Part shown: positions 4,748 through 15,577 of the stretch, in pieces
Position numbering within the stretch: position 1 is the first letter of the stretch
Layout of the letters: each line of letters starts with the position of its first letter
Assembly (NCBI GenBank): GCA_030684575.1
Contig: JAUXVD010000004.1
Coordinates: 1-64,000 of the forward strand
Length of the DNA: 64,000 nt
Source of the DNA: Nitrospirota bacterium
GTDB taxonomy: Bacteria; Nitrospirota; Nitrospiria; Nitrospirales; Nitrospiraceae
Reading direction: 5' to 3'
The notes under the pieces: generated by a model
Seen by the model: only the letters and a program-made list of their open reading frames with translations
Told to the model about the DNA's origin: nothing
The model's database searches: none
Made by a program: the position numbers and the translations under genes

Positions 4748-4839
4748 CCTGCCGCTGCATCCGACGAGCGGTGCGGCCGCCGAGACCGGATCTGAGCTGT
4801 TGTGCGCGCCGCTCGCGGCTGAGCGGCAAGGCGTCAATG
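4742..4839 (+). other. attC recombination site (cassette end 3)
   Basis: GTCTAAC (4742-4748) matches RYYYAAC exactly and contains the stop codon of the preceding gene. CTGCCGCT and CGACGAGCGG pair with CCGCTCGCGG and TGAGCGGCA on the other arm, with bulges. The right core reads GTCAATG, one transition away from the GTTAATG of cassette end 1. Folded length is about 98 bases. Confidence 0.75.
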
Positions 4840-5087
4840 CGACAGGGCTGAGGATCGCATTGTGGCGGTGCGATCTCGGCGCCGAACTTCCGCACTTGGC
4901 CGAACTGTGACCGTCGTCATGCGACCCAAAGCCGAAATGCACGACCGACGGCTATCAGGTGGTCCAATCGAATGACGGCGCCGTCGGTTCCCGCACGGTG
5001 TAAAAGAACAAACTTTCACAGCACTGCGGGCACCTAACGGTACTGCTGAAGAAGGATTGTCTTTAAGGCAAACTGAACATTGTTACC
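4833..5087 (+). repeat. Non-coding spacer block, copy 2
   Basis: The block begins with the same bases as 2853-3162 (ATGCGACAGGGCTGAGG, then GGCGGTGCGATCTCGGCGCC) and ends CTGAACATTGTTACC. It retains the internal CACGACCGACGGCTATC segment but lacks the TTATGCGGAT inverted-repeat element. ACCTAAC at 5032-5038 and GTTACCG at 5082-5088 could be degenerate core sites of an attC for the reversed SIR2 gene, since GTTAGGT on the minus strand fits GTTRRRY. The pairing between them is weak. Confidence 0.55.
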
Positions 5088-5093
5088 GCTGTC

Positions 5094-8000
5094 TCAGGTT
5101 TCGTTAGTTCCTCCGCTTCTCTCATATCGTGCCCAATATGCTTGCAAGCGTCGGAAGCCTGAATCTGAAGATAAACTGGACTCTGTTGAACTGATTTGGT
5201 CCAAACAGGTTTTCAGATCTTTGGCTGGCCATGGATCATGTTCATCCACAATTGCAATGAGCAGAGATAGGGACGCCAGGGGATATTTTGTCGCAAGACC
5301 CGATTCAGCAAGTTCGCTTAGTGGTAGGTAAAAGTTCTTGGTTTTAATCAAGAACGGCATCAAAAATGCCACTGCCTCAGGGAAAAGTGACCGGGCGAGA
5401 ACACAAATCCTCGCTAAAGCAGTCGATTCATGACTGGAACGCTTATCATATGATTTTGGCCAGATTGACTCAATGAGAGGCTTAACCCGGTTACTCCAAT
5501 ACTCTTCACTCCGATCCTCTGCGCCCTCAAGAGACCGTACCAACATCACAGCCGATTCAGCTAACCCTTGTTTAGGCAAGGCATTGAACGCCTCTCTCAA
5601 TTCATTTGTCATGAAATGCTGACCTAGCTCCAGTGCTGCCACTGTGAGCAGGGAAGCGTATTGCGAATCGTGTTTCCCAAGATCAGGGTAATGGTGAGCT
5701 GTCGCGAGAAAAGAACTCTTAAATGCATCCAACAATTCAGCACTTAGCCGTGGTGTCCATAAATAACCTTCCCATACTCCCTTCGCCTCAACCGGATTGG
5801 TGTCCCAGTTAAAAACTGGCAGCAACATTTGCGTGGTCCATACCGGGTCACCTGAGTATAGGGATCTGAGATGTGCAGCCATGATGACCCGACCATGAAC
5901 GTACTCCCTTGGCTGCGGATCGAAGAGTCGTGTTAGTCTAAGTTTAATGGGTTCAGGCAATCCTGAATCAACCGCTGGCTCAGTCTGATACCAGAAGTCG
6001 AGGAGAGCCTCCGTGGCTTGCCCAACAGGATTGTTGATTGCAGCATGAACAGGCTTACCATCTGAAACGTCATCAGTAGCATACTCCAAGATCTTGTCGA
6101 GGAGCTGAAACCATAATTGATGTGAAGATGACGGTACCTGCCTCGCTAACCTCTTGAGCCACCAACCATAGGCGTGCTTGAGGTTGGAGTATGTATCTAT
6201 GGGCACCTGAAGCAGGGACGGTCCAATCTCGCTAAGGCTCGTCAAACCAATTTCACTCTCAGCAAACACCTGCAATGCTACTCGCCATACACCAGCATTC
6301 CAGATCCCATTTTCTCCGAGAATACGAATTGCTGCCATTGCCTTATCTGGAGCGGTTTGACAGATATCTTTCCAATCATCTTCGTACCAATGATCATCGA
6401 CAGGGCGAGTCTTGAGTGCGTTCACCAACTGTTCATGTTGTCTCGGCAAAACGATATGAGTCCTAAAACTTCTTCCTGAACCAGATTCCATCCGATAGGG
6501 AAATTGGTCTTGGTCATCTGGTGAAAGCTGCCATTGTGGAAATCTACCGGAAATTGCGGCAAGACGTTCCTTTGCCTTACCCGTCATTTCAGAACCCGTT
6601 GTTTCCCATATTTTCAATCGCAACCAAGTCTTACGGTCCACTATCCCACTCCACTCTTCATCCTGGAGGTCTTCGCGATACATGCTCCGCGGTGGCCCAG
6701 CCAAGATAACCTTGCAGAGTTCACTCCTCTGAGAAGCATCAAGCCTGGCAACTAGATGTATTAGCAGGCGCAGTGATTCTCTCTGAGTTTCAGGTGACCA
6801 CAACCACTGAGCATTATCCTGCAACAAGAATTTTAGTCCCTGTGTGTGGTTGATAAGGGGAGATTCTGTTGCAACGTGGAAGACCAGCCTTTTGAAGAGC
6901 GGGTATTTGATCAGATTCCATCTCTCCAATTCAGACTCTGCCAGAGTAGGCGCACCCGTTGATGTTGATAGCCATGCATCTCGACAAATTTTGATCAGAG
7001 CAGTCCAATCATGGAAATTATTATTTTGAGGATGGTCAGATATAGATGGACGGGCGATGTATGAAAGGTCGCTTTGCCAGGAAACTTCACCCAGCTCGGC
7101 CATTAGATCCAAGGCTTCTTGCAGGCATGTCGTAAATTCAGAAAGTGAGTCAATTGCCAGCTTAGGCCAGTCAGTGCACTCTTTGATCTCGTTCAGTTTT
7201 TCCCAGGGAGATTCTCCGATCCGAAGACATATTTCCCAACTAGCGTAGTCCCCGGCTAGTTTTGCTCTAAGGCGATCTCCTTGATCCTCCTCGCCATTTT
7301 CCCGTTGCGCGTCCCACTGTAATGGCTCCCTGAGTCCCACAATGGGACGAAGCATCTGCGACAACTCTCGTTTTAGAGAAACACTCCAACCAAACCGCTT
7401 GAACCGATTGCACCAACGATAGAGAGACATTGAAGAATAATTCCGCATGCTCGTCGCGAGTCCAGCACAAATCAATCTCCAGATCAAAGCAAGAGGCCCA
7501 GAAATCCGAGGAGGATCGGCAATCAGCTCCCGGGTTACCAATTCTCTAAACTGTGGATGGAGTAAACAGCCACTCTTGATGACCCATGTAAGCACCTTCT
7601 GTTGGTCAAGATGGCGGCATATCCATCTTGCGATATGCCCCATCACCTCGTCTAAACGAGGCGCAAGGAAATCAGCATCTGCGAGTGACACAAGCGCCAT
7701 GTTGGAATTGTTATTCTGTGGCGCTGGACGATTTACTAAAGAAAATGATTTCACATCTTCGATAGAAAATGGCTTTGTTACCCCAAGGCTGGAGAGATCG
7801 GATATTTTGAATCGTGACTCTGCAAAAACGTCGAGCCATTCAACCGGCGGTATAGGATCTAGATCGGCAAAGGCCTTAGTCACCGTTGGATCCATCAAAG
7901 CCCAGATTACTCGATCAACCTGACCATCACTTGCATTGGGTGAAGGAGGCATAACGGCTTCACGGGCTATGATGGCTCGCTTGCCAGTCATTCCGTCTCG

Positions 8001-8861
8001 GTATAGTCCTGCCCATTCAAAAAGAGTCTTGTGCAACAGATCATGGCTTCCAGCTTCGCAATAGAGAATGGGAACAACTCCTTTGGCTTGCCAATCTCGT
8101 TTATCTGCGTCCTCGCGTCCTTCCCTGAAGGGAGCAAACGCAAAGACATCGTCCGATTCTTCTCCAAGAATCCTGTCTGCCGCGAGTGCATCAAGCATAT
8201 ATCTGAGGACTGGATCGCCGAGGCTATATCCCACAAAGCAGACGACATAATTGCGAAATAGCTCTGTAACAAATCGGCTAGCCCAGCGCTCGGTAAGATA
8301 AGCCAGACCAAAGTCCCCACTTGATACGACGAGGCTATTCAGTGCTGTCGGATCATTGTCTTTCGGAAGCAACCCATGAAGATGAACAAGGCCGTTCCAT
8401 CGGCTTTTCTTTGGTATTGGGAGTAAGGGAGCAGCATACGGCATCAGGGAGGGGTCCACTTCGAGAAAAATTCGATCGAAGTTTGTTGTAACTACTCTCA
8501 GAGAATTATCTTTTGACTTTCCTAGCGTGAGAATGGCCTTGTGAGTATTTGTTGAAATGGGATTCGCCAGGTCTGGCGGAGTGAGGATGGTCTGAATCTT
8601 TTCACGGACCATCGGACGATTCCTGATTCTTCTTTCCAGCAGATCAATAGCCACATCAAACCGTTTTTCCTCAAAAGCTGCCTTTTCAGTAGAATTAAGG
8701 TCCTCGCCAAGATCCTCAAAAAGTCTTCGAGCAAGCCCCTCGAAACCCGGCAATCCCGCTGGATACGAAATGCCTGCACCGCAAAAGAAAACGACCTTAC
8801 CATCCTCATGAGACTCCACCAATCGGTCAGGAACCTCGGGGCCGCCTTTAATAAATCGCAC
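5094..8861 (-). CDS. SIR2-family defence protein, large (DSR-like)
   Basis: A 1255-aa protein with an N-terminal sirtuin-type NAD-binding domain (about residues 15-260). It has F-F-C-G-A-G-I-S (25-32), T-T-N-F-D (125-129), V-H-L-H-G with the catalytic His at 162, and G-Y-S-L-G-D near 215. The following 1000 residues are long, helical and Trp-rich with no enzymatic motif, like the C-terminal sensor regions of defence-associated sirtuins (DSR1/DSR2) and DUF4020-type SIR2 proteins. Such proteins detect a phage component and destroy cellular NAD+. GTG start with GAGG ten bases upstream. The gene is visibly more AT-rich than its neighbours and runs against the cassette direction, both signs of separate acquisition. 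Confidence 0.85.
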   Translation of the reverse strand: MRFIKGGPEVPDRLVESHEDGKVVFFCGAGISYPAGLPGFEGLARRLFEDLGEDLNSTEKAAFEEKRFDVAIDLLERRIRNRPMVREKIQTILTPPDLANPISTNTHKAILTLGKSKDNSLRVVTTNFDRIFLEVDPSLMPYAAPLLPIPKKSRWNGLVHLHGLLPKDNDPTALNSLVVSSGDFGLAYLTERWASRFVTELFRNYVVCFVGYSLGDPVLRYMLDALAADRILGEESDDVFAFAPFREGREDADKRDWQAKGVVPILYCEAGSHDLLHKTLFEWAGLYRDGMTGKRAIIAREAVMPPSPNASDGQVDRVIWALMDPTVTKAFADLDPIPPVEWLDVFAESRFKISDLSSLGVTKPFSIEDVKSFSLVNRPAPQNNNSNMALVSLADADFLAPRLDEVMGHIARWICRHLDQQKVLTWVIKSGCLLHPQFRELVTRELIADPPRISGPLALIWRLICAGLATSMRNYSSMSLYRWCNRFKRFGWSVSLKRELSQMLRPIVGLREPLQWDAQRENGEEDQGDRLRAKLAGDYASWEICLRIGESPWEKLNEIKECTDWPKLAIDSLSEFTTCLQEALDLMAELGEVSWQSDLSYIARPSISDHPQNNNFHDWTALIKICRDAWLSTSTGAPTLAESELERWNLIKYPLFKRLVFHVATESPLINHTQGLKFLLQDNAQWLWSPETQRESLRLLIHLVARLDASQRSELCKVILAGPPRSMYREDLQDEEWSGIVDRKTWLRLKIWETTGSEMTGKAKERLAAISGRFPQWQLSPDDQDQFPYRMESGSGRSFRTHIVLPRQHEQLVNALKTRPVDDHWYEDDWKDICQTAPDKAMAAIRILGENGIWNAGVWRVALQVFAESEIGLTSLSEIGPSLLQVPIDTYSNLKHAYGWWLKRLARQVPSSSHQLWFQLLDKILEYATDDVSDGKPVHAAINNPVGQATEALLDFWYQTEPAVDSGLPEPIKLRLTRLFDPQPREYVHGRVIMAAHLRSLYSGDPVWTTQMLLPVFNWDTNPVEAKGVWEGYLWTPRLSAELLDAFKSSFLATAHHYPDLGKHDSQYASLLTVAALELGQHFMTNELREAFNALPKQGLAESAVMLVRSLEGAEDRSEEYWSNRVKPLIESIWPKSYDKRSSHESTALARICVLARSLFPEAVAFLMPFLIKTKNFYLPLSELAESGLATKYPLASLSLLIAIVDEHDPWPAKDLKTCLDQISSTESSLSSDSGFRRLQAYWARYERSGGTNET

Positions 8862-9618: not shown

Positions 9619-11316
9619 ATGAGCATAATTCACGTCAATCAGATCAAGAATCAGGTCGTGCGGCTCTTTGAGTCCTTGGTTGACTTGAGCGATCTAGGAA
9701 GCCCACCCGCTGAAATTCGGGAGGCCTTCTTTCTTACGCGTGGTCTGGCTGCATACGCTATCCACTACCTCTCAGGATCTACTCCGGCAGACGCAGCTGG
9801 CGCCGTAACGGATGCCGGCAACGACAATGGCCTCGATGCCATTTACTTCGACGAGCCGAACAAGCGACTCTATTTAGTACAGTCCAAGTGGATTAAGGAT
9901 GGCTCCGGTGAGCCTAATAACGGGGAAATCAAGAAGTTCGTTGCGGGTGTACGCGACCTCGTCAATCTGCGATTTGACCGCTTTAACCCGAAGATAGCCG
10001 CGAAGCAGACAATCATTTCTGCTGCGCTGAATGATCCCTCGACACGCTACGAGGTGGTTGTAGCACACACCGGTGCTAGCCGCTTGGCTCCCCCTTCGAT
10101 GCGCGACCTCGAAGACTTGGCCGCCGAGTTCAACGATGTCAGCGAAGTGCTATATGTCAGCGTGCTGAACCAGGCGGAGCTTCACAAGTCGCTAACAGCT
10201 GGAATTGCGGGGGAACCGATCAACCTCCAGATCGGAATAAAGTCCTGGGGGCGGAAGGATACCCCGCATGAAGCCTACTACGGACAGGTCTCGGCCGACC
10301 AAATCGTTGCCTGGTGGACGCAATACCGCCAGCGTCTCTTTGCCAAGAATCTGCGCAATACGCTCGGCGAAACCGATGTTAATGTGGAGATGCGACAAAC
10401 AATTGAGCAAACCCCCAGTTTGTTTTGGTACTTTAACAACGGGATCACGATCCTAACGAAGAAGGCTACTAGGCCCATGGCTGGCGGTGCCGGCAATGAC
10501 TTTAGTATCTTCCACTGCGAAGACATTAGCGTTGTAAACGGAGCACAAACCGTCAGTACAGTCGGAAAGTCCGGCGAAGCCAATCCCACGAGCGCTAAAG
10601 ACGTCTACCTTCCTGTACGAATCATCGTACGCGGGCAAGACGACTCATTCGCAGCCGACGTCACCCGTACCAACAATCGCCAGAACAAGATCGAAAACCG
10701 AGACTTTGTCACTTTGGACCAGGAGCAAACGCGAATCCGCACCGAACTAGCGATCGACAACATCGATTACCAGGTGCTACGAGGGGACTCTGTGCTTCGA
10801 GCTGAAAGTGCTTTCGACCTCGTGGACGCGACTACTGCCCTTGCATGTGCCTCGGGTGCTGTCCGGCTCGCCGTCCAATTGAAACGCGAGATCGGCAAGC
10901 TCTGGGACGACATCTCAAAGGCGCCATATCGCGAGCTTTTCAACGCGTCAGTGGTAGGTATTCATGTATGGCGGTGTGTTCAACTCCAGAGAAGAATCGA
11001 TCGGGCTATCGATGGTTACGTAAAGCGAGTCAATTCCTACAAGGACTATGGCCTAGTAACCCACGGCAATCGCATCATTGCAACCCTCGCCTTCGAGGCA
11101 CTCGCTGTTCAGCGCTTCAAGGAGCCCGCATTCGACCCGATTGCTACGATCACCGATGAGGCAATCATCGCTCTCGTGGATGCCCGGGTCAAGATTCTGA
11201 GCGATCTCCTCGAAAAACACTACCCCACTTCCATTATCCCAACATTGTTCAAGAATCTGAAGAAGTGTGAGCACTTGGCGACAGAAGCACGGAAGGTACT
11301 CGCAGCTGCAGCCTAG
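9619..11316 (+). CDS. AIPR-family abortive phage-infection protein with nuclease-like N-terminus
   Basis: This 565-aa protein has the AIPR signature: L-F-W-Y-F-N-N-G-I-T-I-L (about 268-279) and S-V-V-N-G-A-Q-T-V-S (about 302-311), then T-N-N-R-Q-N-K-I with aromatic residues. The N-terminal 110 residues resemble a PD-(D/E)xK nuclease fold, with G-L-D-A-I-Y-F-D (Asp73) followed by L-Y-L-V-Q-S-K (Gln88-Lys90) as the Q-x-K active-site variant. AIPR proteins are linked to abortive phage infection (AbiR-like) and restriction-like islands. ATG start without an obvious Shine-Dalgarno sequence. The TAG stop lies inside a GCCTAGC core, so it is the last clear cassette. No partner gene is adjacent. Confidence 0.87.
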   Translation: MSIIHVNQIKNQVVRLFESLVDLSDLGSPPAEIREAFFLTRGLAAYAIHYLSGSTPADAAGAVTDAGNDNGLDAIYFDEPNKRLYLVQSKWIKDGSGEPNNGEIKKFVAGVRDLVNLRFDRFNPKIAAKQTIISAALNDPSTRYEVVVAHTGASRLAPPSMRDLEDLAAEFNDVSEVLYVSVLNQAELHKSLTAGIAGEPINLQIGIKSWGRKDTPHEAYYGQVSADQIVAWWTQYRQRLFAKNLRNTLGETDVNVEMRQTIEQTPSLFWYFNNGITILTKKATRPMAGGAGNDFSIFHCEDISVVNGAQTVSTVGKSGEANPTSAKDVYLPVRIIVRGQDDSFAADVTRTNNRQNKIENRDFVTLDQEQTRIRTELAIDNIDYQVLRGDSVLRAESAFDLVDATTALACASGAVRLAVQLKREIGKLWDDISKAPYRELFNASVVGIHVWRCVQLQRRIDRAIDGYVKRVNSYKDYGLVTHGNRIIATLAFEALAVQRFKEPAFDPIATITDEAIIALVDARVKILSDLLEKHYPTSIIPTLFKNLKKCEHLATEARKVLAAAA

Positions 11317-11377
11317 CCCGCGCTTGAAGCTGACGAGGGCGTAAACGCCTCAGCAGCTTAAGGGCAGTTCGTTAAGG
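11311..11377 (+). other. attC-like recombination site (cassette end 4)
   Basis: A short attC of about 67 bp starts at GCCTAGC, with the AIPR stop codon inside, and ends at GTTAAGG. The arms GCTTGAAGCTG plus GAGGGCGT pair with ACGCCTC plus CAGCAGCTTAAGGGC around an AAA loop, with unpaired bases between boxes. It is followed by the same GCGACAGGGCT stretch seen after cassette ends 1 and 3. Confidence 0.7.
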
Positions 11378-11438
11378 CGACAGGGCTAAGGACCGATTTA
11401 TGGCGGTGTGATCTCAGCGCCGAACTTCCGCTCAGGCG
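11371..11438 (+). repeat. Non-coding spacer block, copy 4 (left part)
   Basis: GCGACAGGGCTAAGGACCG, then TTTATGGCGGTGTGATC and AGCGCCGAACTTCCGC, align to the starts of blocks at 2853 and 4833 with a few substitutions. The similarity fades after about 11438, where the array seems to end. Confidence 0.6.
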
Positions 11439-12440
11439 GATATCAGACGTTGGCCGTTGAGTCGCCGTCTAACGAGGCTGAGAAAACCCCCTTGAGGGCT
11501 CGAGTAAATCGTTTTCGGTGGTCGCTTGCCCCTTCCCACGTTAGAGATCGTTGAATACAGGGCGTTCTGGCGGGTTGTTTTTTTATTTCATCACAGCCTT
11601 ATTTCTCCGTCTGGGGGTTTCCTACAGACTCGTTGGATTCTCGCGCACTAAGCAGGCGTCGATCCGCGGAGGGAAAACCTGCCTCCCTGACCACGAGGCG
11701 GTCGCGCGACCCGTGGGCGTGTGGATCTCCTCCTGCCATTCCTTACACCGTCACGCTCATCAATCAAATGGACCACGCCTTAAAAGGGCGATCAGTGGAG
11801 ACAGGGATAGAGTGAGATGGAGTGCGACCTGGAAGCGGGAGCAAAACCGGGAGTAGTACAACGCGAACCGGTGGGCTTGCACGGAACAAGACTCATCACC
11901 GGCTCCCCTCCCATCGCACCGTCCTGAACATCTAGAAAGCCCTGAGAAGCTTTTATGGACAGGGGCGACAGCAATGGTCACTCTCGCCATCCCACACGCG
12001 CCTGAGAGCCTTGACACCTCCTCACGGACAGCCTAGCCTTCCCGTCACCGATCTGATGCGTGATGGATGACATGGGAGGGAACCCATGAAATCGAAGCAC
12101 CCGATCACATCGAAGACGACGCGCCAGAAACCAGCCCGCCGAACGAAACCAGGTTCCCCCACACCTGCCGTATCGGCAATTCTCCACGAATGGATTGCCA
12201 TACGAGCCTACGAGATTTACAAGCGACGTGTCCGCTAAGGTCCTCTTGATGACTGGTTTCAGACGGAGCGGAGATTCTCGGACAAAAGAACACACGGAAT
12301 GCTGACATGCCGCATCGTGGTGGATACGCCAATGAGGAGCAAGACTGACGGCGAGACAAACCAACCACCGAAATACAACCATTTGCCCCACTTGGCTCTT
12401 GCACCCTATACGCATCCCTCCTAGAATGAACTTCCCTGCG
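11439..12440. other. Intergenic, no gene seen (about 1 kb)
   Basis: Short frames here lack start signals and domain-like sequence. The only structure is the dispersed repeat at 11661-11815. CCCCCTTGAGGG near 11487 forms a small hairpin just past the cassette array. Confidence 0.5.
11661..11815. repeat. Dispersed intergenic repeat, copy 1
   Basis: It begins GATCCGCGGAGGGAAAACCT and ends with CGCCTTAAAAGGGCGATCAG then GGAGACAGGGATAGAGTGAG. Both ends recur at 16454-16561. The middle differs in length and sequence. CGCCTT and AAGGGCG can form a hairpin. Confidence 0.6.
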
Positions 12441-12441
12441 A

Positions 12442-12788
12442 GGCTCCTATGCCTTCACGATTCGTCTCTGCCGTCGCTTCCCCGTGCAATACTCTGTGAC
12501 CTATCGTAATGGTCTGTCTGAAGGCCACGGTTTGACCTGGAATCTTTCGGTAAATGGGTGGCGACTCTCTCTGGGAATCTGCCGATGCGACCAGGGGAAA
12601 CCCTCTCGCCGACTGTCAGGCTGCCAAATGAGCAACACATCGAAGTCCACGAGGCGGTTGGGCGATGGTCGAGAGGGCAAGAATTCGCGATTGAGAATAT
12701 TGTGGTGGAGCCGCACACACATGCGCGGCTGTTGCATTATGTCAAACGACTCATCAAGGAGCCCAGTATTCACAACAAGGAGGTATAG
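12442..12788 (+). pseudogene. PilZ-domain protein gene broken by frameshift
   Basis: The N-terminal half in one frame reads R-R-F-P-V-Q-Y-S-V-T-Y then L-T-W-N-L-S-V-N-G-W-R-L-S, the beta-barrel of a PilZ c-di-GMP-binding domain. The C-terminal half continues in another frame as G-N-L-P-M-R-P-G-E-T, V-R-L-P-N-E-Q-H-I and V-G-R-W-S-R-G-Q-E-F. The switch falls in a CTCTCTCT run (12564-12571), consistent with gain of one CT. The ATG at 12449 is in a third frame and stops early, so a second lesion near 12470 is possible. The remnant ends two bases before the avidin-like start. Confidence 0.75.
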
Positions 12789-12790
12789 AA

Positions 12791-13249
12791 ATGAAGACGG
12801 TTGCGTCTCTAATGCTGGCTTGCGCGCTGCTCGTTCCCGTTGATAATGCGTGGAGCAGTCCGCCCGCGCTCAAAGGTGATTCAGAATGGACAAATCAGCA
12901 CAAATCGGCTTTGAAGCTGACCGTCGAGGCCAGCGGAATGGTATCGGGAACTTTTACTACAGCCGTGGGATGTGGGGCTGGTAAGGCCCGCAAAGTTGTT
13001 GGGACGATGAATGGACTTGCCATATCCTTCTTAGTCAACTTCGATGAATGCGAATCCATCACAGCTTGGAACGGACATCTCCTTGTGGACGGAGGGAATG
13101 AGAGCCTTTCCACGCTATGGCATCTGCCTATTGGTGTTAGTCCAGTAACCTTCAAATCGACACTGGCGGGAGCAGATATATTCACTAGAAGCACCGTAAA
13201 GTCGGGTTGTAAACCCGGTTCCCTCTCACTCATGGGCGTAGGTTGTTGA
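12791..13249 (+). CDS. Avidin-family secreted biotin-binding-like protein
   Basis: A 152-aa precursor with a Sec signal peptide (about residues 1-22), then an avidin fold. Aligned to streptavidin, W33-x-N35 and S39 match the first strand (N23, S27), F55 and T57 replace Y43 and S45, S89-x-T91-x-W93 match S88/T90/W92, W110 matches W108, F121 replaces W120 and D129 matches D128. The K-S-T-L-A-G-A-D-I-F tail is nearly the streptavidin tail. W79 is Phe (F84). Several biotin contacts are therefore kept, with conservative aromatic swaps that may lower affinity. Four Cys lie in the mature part. AGGAGG sits six bases before the ATG. It is the last frame before a small unrelated gene. Confidence 0.82.
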   Translation: MKTVASLMLACALLVPVDNAWSSPPALKGDSEWTNQHKSALKLTVEASGMVSGTFTTAVGCGAGKARKVVGTMNGLAISFLVNFDECESITAWNGHLLVDGGNESLSTLWHLPIGVSPVTFKSTLAGADIFTRSTVKSGCKPGSLSLMGVGC

Positions 13250-13297
13250 GATCCGTTTCACAGCAACCAGGACGCGAACGAGCGACGGAAAAGGAAG

Positions 13298-13438
13298 ATG
13301 AGAAACGACCACCCCAAACGCGACAGCATGTCCCTTGAAGAGGCCACCAGCTCTAACATGTGGGAGATCGCCGCAATTATGGAAGTGCTCGAACGAAAGG
13401 GCCTGTGCACCATAGGCCTGCAGATTCAACCCGCCTAG
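13298..13438 (+). CDS. Small conserved-looking protein, 46 aa
   Basis: The frame encodes M-R-N-D-H-P-K-R-D-S-M-S-L-E-E-A then a helix with M-W-E-I-A-A-I-M-E-V-L-E-R-K-G-L-C. AAGGAAG lies immediately upstream of the ATG, a little close; an alternative ATG at 13328 gives 36 residues. The regular heptad pattern and codon use suggest a real peptide. I believe similar short proteins occur in Nitrospira, but cannot check. No function can be given. Confidence 0.5.
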   Translation: MRNDHPKRDSMSLEEATSSNMWEIAAIMEVLERKGLCTIGLQIQPA

Positions 13439-13532
13439 TCCTACGTAACACCGAGCCGGGGATCTCCCGAGGCCCCAATAGTGCCTCCTTGTGATATACT
13501 AAGGAATACACACGTTAGTCTGAGGAGACACC

Positions 13533-13889
13533 ATGGCCAAGATTCTGGTGATTGATGATGAGCAGGGCATCCGGGATCTCCTCGACACACTGCTTTGCCG
13601 AAAAGGCTATGACGTGGTCGTCGCGGAGAATGGCCAGAAGGGTCTGGATCTCTTTCGTCGAGAACACCCCGATGTCGTGGTGCTTGATCTGAAAATGCCA
13701 GGGATGGATGGGCTCACGGTCTTGCGACAGGTGCGCAATATCAACCCAAAGCAGCCGGTGATCATTTTGACGGGGGCAGGGACTCCTGAGATGGAACAGC
13801 AGATCCATGCGCTGGGGGTGACCGAGTACGTCGAAAAAGAATTCTCGCTGCATCTCCTGGGGGACTCGCTGAAGCGCCTACTCCTCTAG
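13533..13889 (+). CDS. Single-domain response regulator (CheY-like)
   Basis: A 118-aa receiver domain only. The acidic pair lies in I-D-D-E (residues 7-10), the phospho-acceptor Asp in V-V-V-L-D-L-K-M-P (about residue 52), the conserved Thr in I-I-L-T-G-A-G (about 82) and the Lys in Y-V-E-K (about 103). The Lys is followed by Glu, not the usual Pro. No output domain is present, so it would act by protein contact or as a phosphorelay intermediate. GAGGAG is eight bases before the ATG. No cognate kinase is adjacent. Confidence 0.9.
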   Translation: MAKILVIDDEQGIRDLLDTLLCRKGYDVVVAENGQKGLDLFRREHPDVVVLDLKMPGMDGLTVLRQVRNINPKQPVIILTGAGTPEMEQQIHALGVTEYVEKEFSLHLLGDSLKRLLL

Positions 13890-14331
13890 ACCTATCTTCC
13901 GACGTAGCGGGTGTCCGTTACGCGGCTCCGACGACACACGCCTGCCAATCAATGCAAGTTTTTCCGCATCCCCTGTCTTGTGGTTTGATCGTCCCCTGCC
14001 TAAAACACGCCACACCGCGAGGCTCTCAGGCCCTTCTTGATTCGCCACTATCGCCGTTTTCCCCTGCAATGGGTCGTCATGGACAACACTGGCCTGGCTC
14101 AAAGGGGGAAGGTCATGGAGGGTAATGCACAAAGCGTCGAGAGCGTGAGATCGATGACCCAGCAAGTGAGCCGACTGGTAAGACTTACTATTGTCCTATT
14201 TTCGACACAACAAATCGCCGCGATGACTGGACTGGAGCAATTTCAGAAAGGTGTCCGACTAACCCAGGCGAGGTGATACCACAAGCAGATCTTTCGCGCT
14301 TCGGAATCAGCACATCTTCTGCAACAACCGA
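13890..14331. other. Intergenic with possible PilZ remnant
   Basis: One frame at about 14037-14130 reads R-H-Y-R-R-F-P-L-Q-W-V-V then G-L-A-Q-R-G, reminiscent of the first strand of a PilZ domain, but similarity stops after about 30 residues. Nothing else is seen. Confidence 0.25.
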
Positions 14332-14728: not shown

Positions 14729-15397
14729 ATGAAGGTATGGTCTTGCCTGTCTAGAAGGTTCATGCATTGGGTCTCATCCGCTCTCTTCGCGTGCCTCACG
14801 CTCTGCCTTCTTTTTCAGCCAACGGACACACACGCAGAGTCCTATGTGGCTGGTTTCGCTGGTTATGGATTGTCTGCACAGTTGAGTGACGTGAGGGGGA
14901 CAGGGGGCATTTCAGGTAATACAGGATCGAATCTTGGTCTTCAGAACTCCCCGATCTATGGGCTGAAGGTGGGGCATTTTCTAGATGACCTAAAGTACTT
15001 TGGTGCCGAGGCGGAACTGTATACCGCCACTCCCTATCTCAAGCAACAGCAGCTCACGCTGAGTAGCCCAACAGGGTCACAAACTGCCACCATTCCGGGA
15101 GCCCACCTGCGAGTGACAACGGCAGCCTTGAATGTGGTGTATCGATACCCAGGACACGTCATTCAACCATACGCGGGTGTGGGGCTCGGATTGTTTTGGT
15201 TCACCACTCCCACTTCAACGGCAGGCTCGGCAGTCCGACCGGGCTTAAACGTCCTGGCAGGAACGCGTGTGCTTATCACGCAACAGATAGCCCTCTTCGG
15301 AGAATACAAATACAACCACTCAAGCTTTCCCGGCGGGGATTTCAACGCCAACTACAATGCGCACTTCGTCGTATTTGGGGTGGGGTATCATTTCTGA
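14729..15397 (+). CDS. Outer-membrane beta-barrel protein
   Basis: A 222-aa protein with a long signal peptide (hydrophobic core S-A-L-F-A-C-L-T-L-C-L-L-F, cleavage likely after T-H-A, residue about 36). The mature part has amphipathic strands with alternating aromatic residues, Y-G-L-K-V-G-H-F, V-V-Y-R-Y-P-G-H and Y-A-G-V-G-L-G-L-F, and ends H-F-V-V-F-G-V-G-Y-H-F. The terminal Phe is the usual BAM signal. This is the pattern of eight-stranded OmpW/OMP_b-brl proteins. Cargo unknown. AAGGAG lies eight bases before the ATG. Confidence 0.85.
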   Translation: MKVWSCLSRRFMHWVSSALFACLTLCLLFQPTDTHAESYVAGFAGYGLSAQLSDVRGTGGISGNTGSNLGLQNSPIYGLKVGHFLDDLKYFGAEAELYTATPYLKQQQLTLSSPTGSQTATIPGAHLRVTTAALNVVYRYPGHVIQPYAGVGLGLFWFTTPTSTAGSAVRPGLNVLAGTRVLITQQIALFGEYKYNHSSFPGGDFNANYNAHFVVFGVGYHF

Positions 15398-15577
15398 CGC
15401 GTGTGACTGATGCCGAGGTGGCGGGAGGGTGTCCCGGTCTCTATTGACCTTTGTTGGAAAGGCCGAAAGCCAAATTGGCTTGTTCTATTTCGAATTTGAG
15501 GGCATCAGACAGAGCTGGAAGACACGTTAGGAAGATTGTATTTACAGGGCTCCGTTCGAGACATGAGGCGTCGTTAG

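Follow-up and report, generated by a model that had tools for sequence, protein, structure and literature searches.

The DNA analysed here (the window) is a stretch of 64,000 nucleotides, positions 1 to 64,000 of the forward strand of contig JAUXVD010000004.1 from a Nitrospirota bacterium (assembly GCA_030684575.1). An intact reading frame at 12791–13249, described in an earlier note as a secreted avidin homologue, lies between the remnant of a PilZ-domain gene and a truncated copy of a small ORF. The features of this segment are:

12449..12788 (+): PilZ-domain gene remnant, frameshifted near its start and near residue 30 (compared with intact relatives, PF07238)
12777..12784 (+): Shine-Dalgarno sequence AAGGAGGT, 6 nt 5' of the avidin start codon; it overlaps the 3' end of the PilZ remnant
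12791..13249 (+): avidin-family gene, 152 aa, intact (ORF list, Pfam, PDB, AlphaFold2, Foldseek, VIA-align 2)
12791..12856 (+): predicted Sec signal peptide, residues 1–22, with an AWS cleavage motif (sequence, hydropathy, low N-terminal pLDDT)
12971..12973 (+): Cys61 codon, loop 3,4, equivalent of bradavidin Cys39 (alignments, PMC5398887)
13049..13051 (+): Cys87 codon, loop 5,6, equivalent of bradavidin Cys69 (alignments, PMC5398887)
13208..13246 (+): C-terminal tail, residues 140–152, bounded by Cys140 and Cys152 (alignment, AlphaFold2)
13298..13438 (+): truncated small-ORF copy, M..RPKRDTMSLEEAT.., with 38 matching residues of 117 (DNA/ORF comparison)

The frame was found where the earlier note had placed it, and its product scored 65.9 bits (E 5.3e-18) against Pfam Avidin PF01382, for which the cut-off is 24. 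A genome-wide profile search returned it as the sole avidin of the 3.79-Mb genome, and 175 distinct chains among the PDB sequences matched it by phmmer at E <= 0.01, led by engineered streptavidin, shwanavidin, bradavidin, rhizavidin and wilavidin. We regard its membership of the avidin family as practically certain. The score against the NCBIfam streptavidin equivalog NF047623 was 40.8 bits, far below the cut-off of 300, and the protein is therefore called an avidin and not a streptavidin.

The AlphaFold2 model, prepared with 21 natural sequences as input, had a mean pLDDT of 80.8, with values >90 across most of residues 31–130, and formed an eight-stranded antiparallel beta barrel whose strands span residues 29–133. 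The listed structural matches from Foldseek and VIA-align 2 were avidins only, with Z up to 18.4; the top fold matches were rhizavidin, shwanavidin, agroavidin, afifavidin and hoefavidin (Z 17–18), with rhizavidin and agroavidin ranked first, and the streptavidin entries (Z 16.6–16.9) were tied with or just behind these, where rows within 1 Z were counted as ties. The earlier note had named lack of an avidin fold by prediction among its refuting outcomes; the model gives that fold with confidence.

The N-terminus, MKTVASLMLACALLVPVDNAWS, followed by cleavage and then S, was judged by eye to read as a Sec signal peptide: it has K2, a hydrophobic stretch over residues 3–17 (mean Kyte-Doolittle 2.3) and A-W-S at 20–22, in agreement with the signal peptide claimed before. 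The bradavidin relatives also carry a signal peptide. It is highly likely that the window avidin is exported, to be periplasmic or extracellular.

The earlier count of four Cys holds for the mature part (C61, C87, C140, C152); the precursor has five, with C11 added within the signal peptide. C11 was also considered as a lipoprotein cysteine and ruled out, as it is without a typical lipobox and the hydrophobic stretch preceding it is too short. C61 and C87 align with the cysteines of the bradavidin Cys39–Cys69 disulphide, in keeping with the suggestion of a possibly disulphide-bonded variant, and the protein has by alignment the loop 3,4 and loop 5,6 cysteines that mark the disulphide-bearing bacterial avidins; the bond itself is predicted. 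The bradavidin disulphide is also found in rhizavidin, shwanavidin and hoefavidin, and the equivalent bond matters for biotin binding by shwanavidin and rhizavidin (PMC5398887). As read from the alignments, the C61–C87 pair is this already-known disulphide and no new feature. The tail past residue 134 matches nothing in the relatives, and AlphaFold2 models it without structure.

The residue map drawn up earlier was verified position by position. The streptavidin-type contacts N35, S39, S89, T91, W93, W110 and D129 are kept (alignments, PMC5398887), and F55, T57, F84 and F121 stand at the positions of streptavidin Y43, S45, W79 and W120. T57 is not a loss, since chicken avidin carries Thr35 at that position, and F84 corresponds to bradavidin Phe66. 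Eight of the usual biotin contacts are thus identical to those of streptavidin or chicken avidin, whereas F55 and F121 differ. With Phe55 for Tyr43 a hydrogen bond to the ureido oxygen is lost, with Phe121 for Trp120 the inter-subunit Trp, and each change is expected to lower affinity; Phe121 suggests that the neighbouring subunit helps less than in streptavidin, and Phe55 may lower affinity further.

Of the known proteins, bradavidin (Bradyrhizobium diazoefficiens blr5658, PDB 2y32/4bbo) gave the highest identity, about 41% over 100 columns, and has in common with the window avidin the Phe at the Trp79 position, the Cys pair and the motif NF..C.S.T.W. Bradavidin differs in being tetrameric with an inter-subunit Trp99 (F121 in the window avidin), in having Tyr31 and Asn33 where the window avidin has F55 and T57, and in its longer loop 3,4 and its Brad-tag C-terminus, to which the window tail with its two Cys is unrelated. 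The best fold matches were the dimeric or short avidins (shwanavidin, wilavidin, rhizavidin, agroavidin, afifavidin and hoefavidin), which have the same loop 3,4–5,6 cysteine pair and, in the structure alignments, 22–33% identity. Shwanavidin and wilavidin are, like the window avidin, without Trp at the Trp120 position; avidins that are dimeric in the strict sense form dimers in solution and have no such inter-subunit Trp, and the window avidin has Phe121 there. Streptavidin and chicken avidin have the fold and most of the biotin contacts in common with the window protein, but streptavidin has Trp120 and Tyr43 and is without a cysteine pair of this type. An artificial composite of shwanavidin-type residues served only as a query to obtain PDB alignments.

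From the conserved contacts and the modelled fold, the window avidin should, with good confidence, bind biotin with a Kd below 1 uM. We also considered if the avidin fold might be kept without high-affinity biotin binding, the pocket serving another ligand or being filled by the protein's own C-terminal tail as in bradavidin and hoefavidin; this is the strongest of the alternatives, though we consider it rather unlikely. The F55 and F121 changes and the unique tail with its two cysteines would fit such a loss, and there is precedent, as the C-terminus of wild-type bradavidin fills the neighbour's pocket (PMC3344845) and a C-terminal peptide of hoefavidin occupies its own ligand site (PMC5398887). 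All the other polar contacts and the W93 and W110 positions are kept, however, and PDB entry titles in the Foldseek listing name complexes of wild-type agroavidin with biotin along with an F46Y mutant; agroavidin thus has a natural Phe, apparently at the streptavidin Tyr43 position, which seems compatible with binding. Among the papers searched, none dealt with agroavidin or with Y43F/W120F streptavidin.

Avidins were carried by 6/395 sampled Nitrospirota genomes, by 3/175 in the family and by 1/32 in the genus, the last being the window genome alone, and the patchy distribution expected in the earlier note was thereby seen. The search for Nitrospirota orthologues that it had proposed found few avidins and no close orthologue (best 39–42% identity). 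The other Nitrospirota avidins (eight loci) have the Pfam avidin domain and are without a signal peptide, in the frames found, and without the cysteine pair. In a tree of 31 sequences, a split with support of 97/95 placed the window avidin in the Cys-bearing group, together with shwanavidin, wilavidin, the bradavidins and a protein from Aquabacterium; all the other Nitrospirota avidins fell on its far side, where they were streptavidin-like or in a separate group that includes proteins from Acidobacteriota, Legionellaceae and Alphaproteobacteria. The window avidin forms a separate deep branch; with an end branch as long as 0.92 and no identity above 41%, its exact placement is unsure. This pattern fits separate horizontal gains of avidin within Nitrospirota, and the window gene itself was most likely gained horizontally. 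A Tatlockia (Legionellaceae) metagenome contig, JACCVJ010000444.1, carries two near-identical avidin genes about 12 kb apart.

Genome contigs scanned with the single protein gave no close relatives, and a scan with a three-sequence alignment gave 36 loci, all at 30–41% identity. A plasmid search returned four distant matches, in Rhizobium, Bradyrhizobium and Streptomyces. Carriage by phages was dropped as a candidate, there being nothing in IMG/VR and nothing among the INPHARED phages. The 2021 survey of 118 species (PMC8033661) placed avidins in Proteobacteria, Actinobacteria and Bacteroidetes and recorded a single hit in Synergistetes; the present protein extends the family to Nitrospirota. 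None of the papers searched was about an avidin of Nitrospira or Nitrospirae, and avidins in this phylum are rare and apparently undescribed. The novelty lies in the phylum, the deep branch and the position of the gene as cargo (below), not in the fold, the residues or the disulphide.

A DNA search showed that the PilZ and small-ORF pair recurs across the genus. The intact small ORF is 117 aa and belongs to no Pfam family; its matches number up to 17 in one genome, many of them decayed. Six copies of the module, in five genomes, are empty, with 18 nt from the aligned PilZ end to the small-ORF start, and one of these is on contig C18 of the window's own genome. Seven further copies bear cargo genes that are unrelated to one another and mostly encode signal peptides: Sel1-repeat proteins with signal peptides in four, a Sel1 protein plus an Adhesin_E protein in one, and in two a 275-aa protein without assigned family. 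In the window, the same slot between the PilZ remnant and the small ORF measures 537 nt and is filled by the avidin gene. Because PilZ and small ORF stand 18 nt apart in the six empty copies, which are paralogous modules and not the orthologous site, the avidin gene probably came into such a module by insertion, and the module resembles a hot spot for insertions or a slot for cassettes. Several repeated elements were seen nearby. A second PilZ fragment is present at 13953–14096, downstream of a response regulator; an outer-membrane beta-barrel gene (14808–15441) recurs at 90% identity on contig C18, where some 4.3 kb separate it from the intact empty module; and a dispersed repeat of about 62 bases at 11370–11431 has many copies (85–92% identity) across the genus and this genome, e.g. 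at 2852–2913 and 4832–4893.

The insertion could also be decaying, unexpressed and without function, as might be expected from the frameshifted PilZ neighbour, the truncated small ORF and the flat codon-position GC of the avidin gene (0.53/0.52/0.51, vs 0.62/0.42/0.66 in 29 neighbouring ORFs); but the avidin frame is intact, is preceded by a strong Shine-Dalgarno sequence and keeps nearly all the structural hallmark residues, and we consider decay improbable. No sigma-70-like promoter was found in 11300–13600, which, with the decayed neighbourhood, makes expression of the avidin gene uncertain.

The host had been described as a probable nitrifier, and its genome agrees: an NxrB ORF scores 569 bits to the Kuenenia nitrite oxidoreductase subunit B, and the Nitrospira nxrB forward-primer sequence has an exact match inside it. 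The search for amoA (comammox) was uninformative, as no control genome matched either. Three biotin genes scored above their cut-offs, bioB at 386 bits (225), bioA at 558 (405) and bioF at 476 (426), and no BioY was detected in the host genome by a search that matched 9/14 control genomes. In all likelihood the host oxidises nitrite and is prototrophic for biotin.

Release of biotin from avidin-type binders is very slow, a property better suited to storing or withholding the vitamin than to transporting it. That the window avidin is a periplasmic binder scavenging biotin for import is accordingly the least likely reading, for although secretion and biotin binding are both predicted, bioA, bioB and bioF score above curated cut-offs in the host while BioY was not detected, no transporter gene adjoins the avidin gene, and so slow a release would serve import poorly. 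A scavenging protein would be of little use to a prototroph without BioY, whereas denying biotin to others would come at low cost.

Sequestration as the role of the window avidin is put at about even chances; the whole reading, that of a secreted avidin of the bacterial type with a disulphide (bradavidin, rhizavidin and shwanavidin group) which binds biotin and serves for sequestration, is somewhat favoured, and the flat codon-position GC of the gene counts for it as well. The protein would leave the cytoplasm by way of its signal peptide, and the C61–C87 bridge would keep the pocket covered by loop 3,4. Free biotin would be bound by each subunit largely through residues of its own, with Phe in place of the Trp from the neighbour. 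Outside the cytoplasm, the avidin could then tie up biotin or antimetabolites that resemble it, to the detriment of competitors or grazers, and the host would be spared because its own biotin is made in the cytoplasm. According to a published report (PMC13336041), streptavidin sequesters biotin and also neutralises acidomycin, an antibiotic of the biotin pathway. In the present case the role is one that we infer, since nothing beside the avidin gene points to biotin-pathway antibiotics: there was neither a biotin-related gene beside it nor an adjacent antibiotic cluster. Seven other avidin loci showed no evident shared neighbour genes that would point to a partner pathway.

A broader and quite speculative proposal is that Nitrospira-type nitrite oxidisers use the repeated PilZ-[cargo]-small-ORF module for exchangeable secreted proteins, in this instance an avidin that keeps biotin from the neighbours or predators of the strain in nitrifying biofilms. 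A chemolithoautotroph that makes biotin yet secretes an avidin would provide a clean test of sequestration versus nutrition as the natural role of bacterial avidins. If active in nitrifying biofilms, the avidin could shape which biotin auxotrophs live beside nitrifiers.

Two further loci with defence-like genes were noted. Upstream of the avidin gene by 1.5 kb is a small defence island made up of a 1255-aa SIR2-domain protein (5094–8861, minus strand), matching anti-phage Dsr1 at 1146 bits by PADLOC and with a GC3 of 0.45, far under that of its neighbours, and an adjoining 565-aa AIPR / AbiU-like abortive-infection protein (9619–11316, plus strand). In another Nitrospirota genome (G432; locus L076, 2043–6784), an avidin without a signal peptide is flanked by defence-like genes, namely a PDC-S73 candidate, a weak LmuA/HamA-like match and a protein with a TIR-like start.
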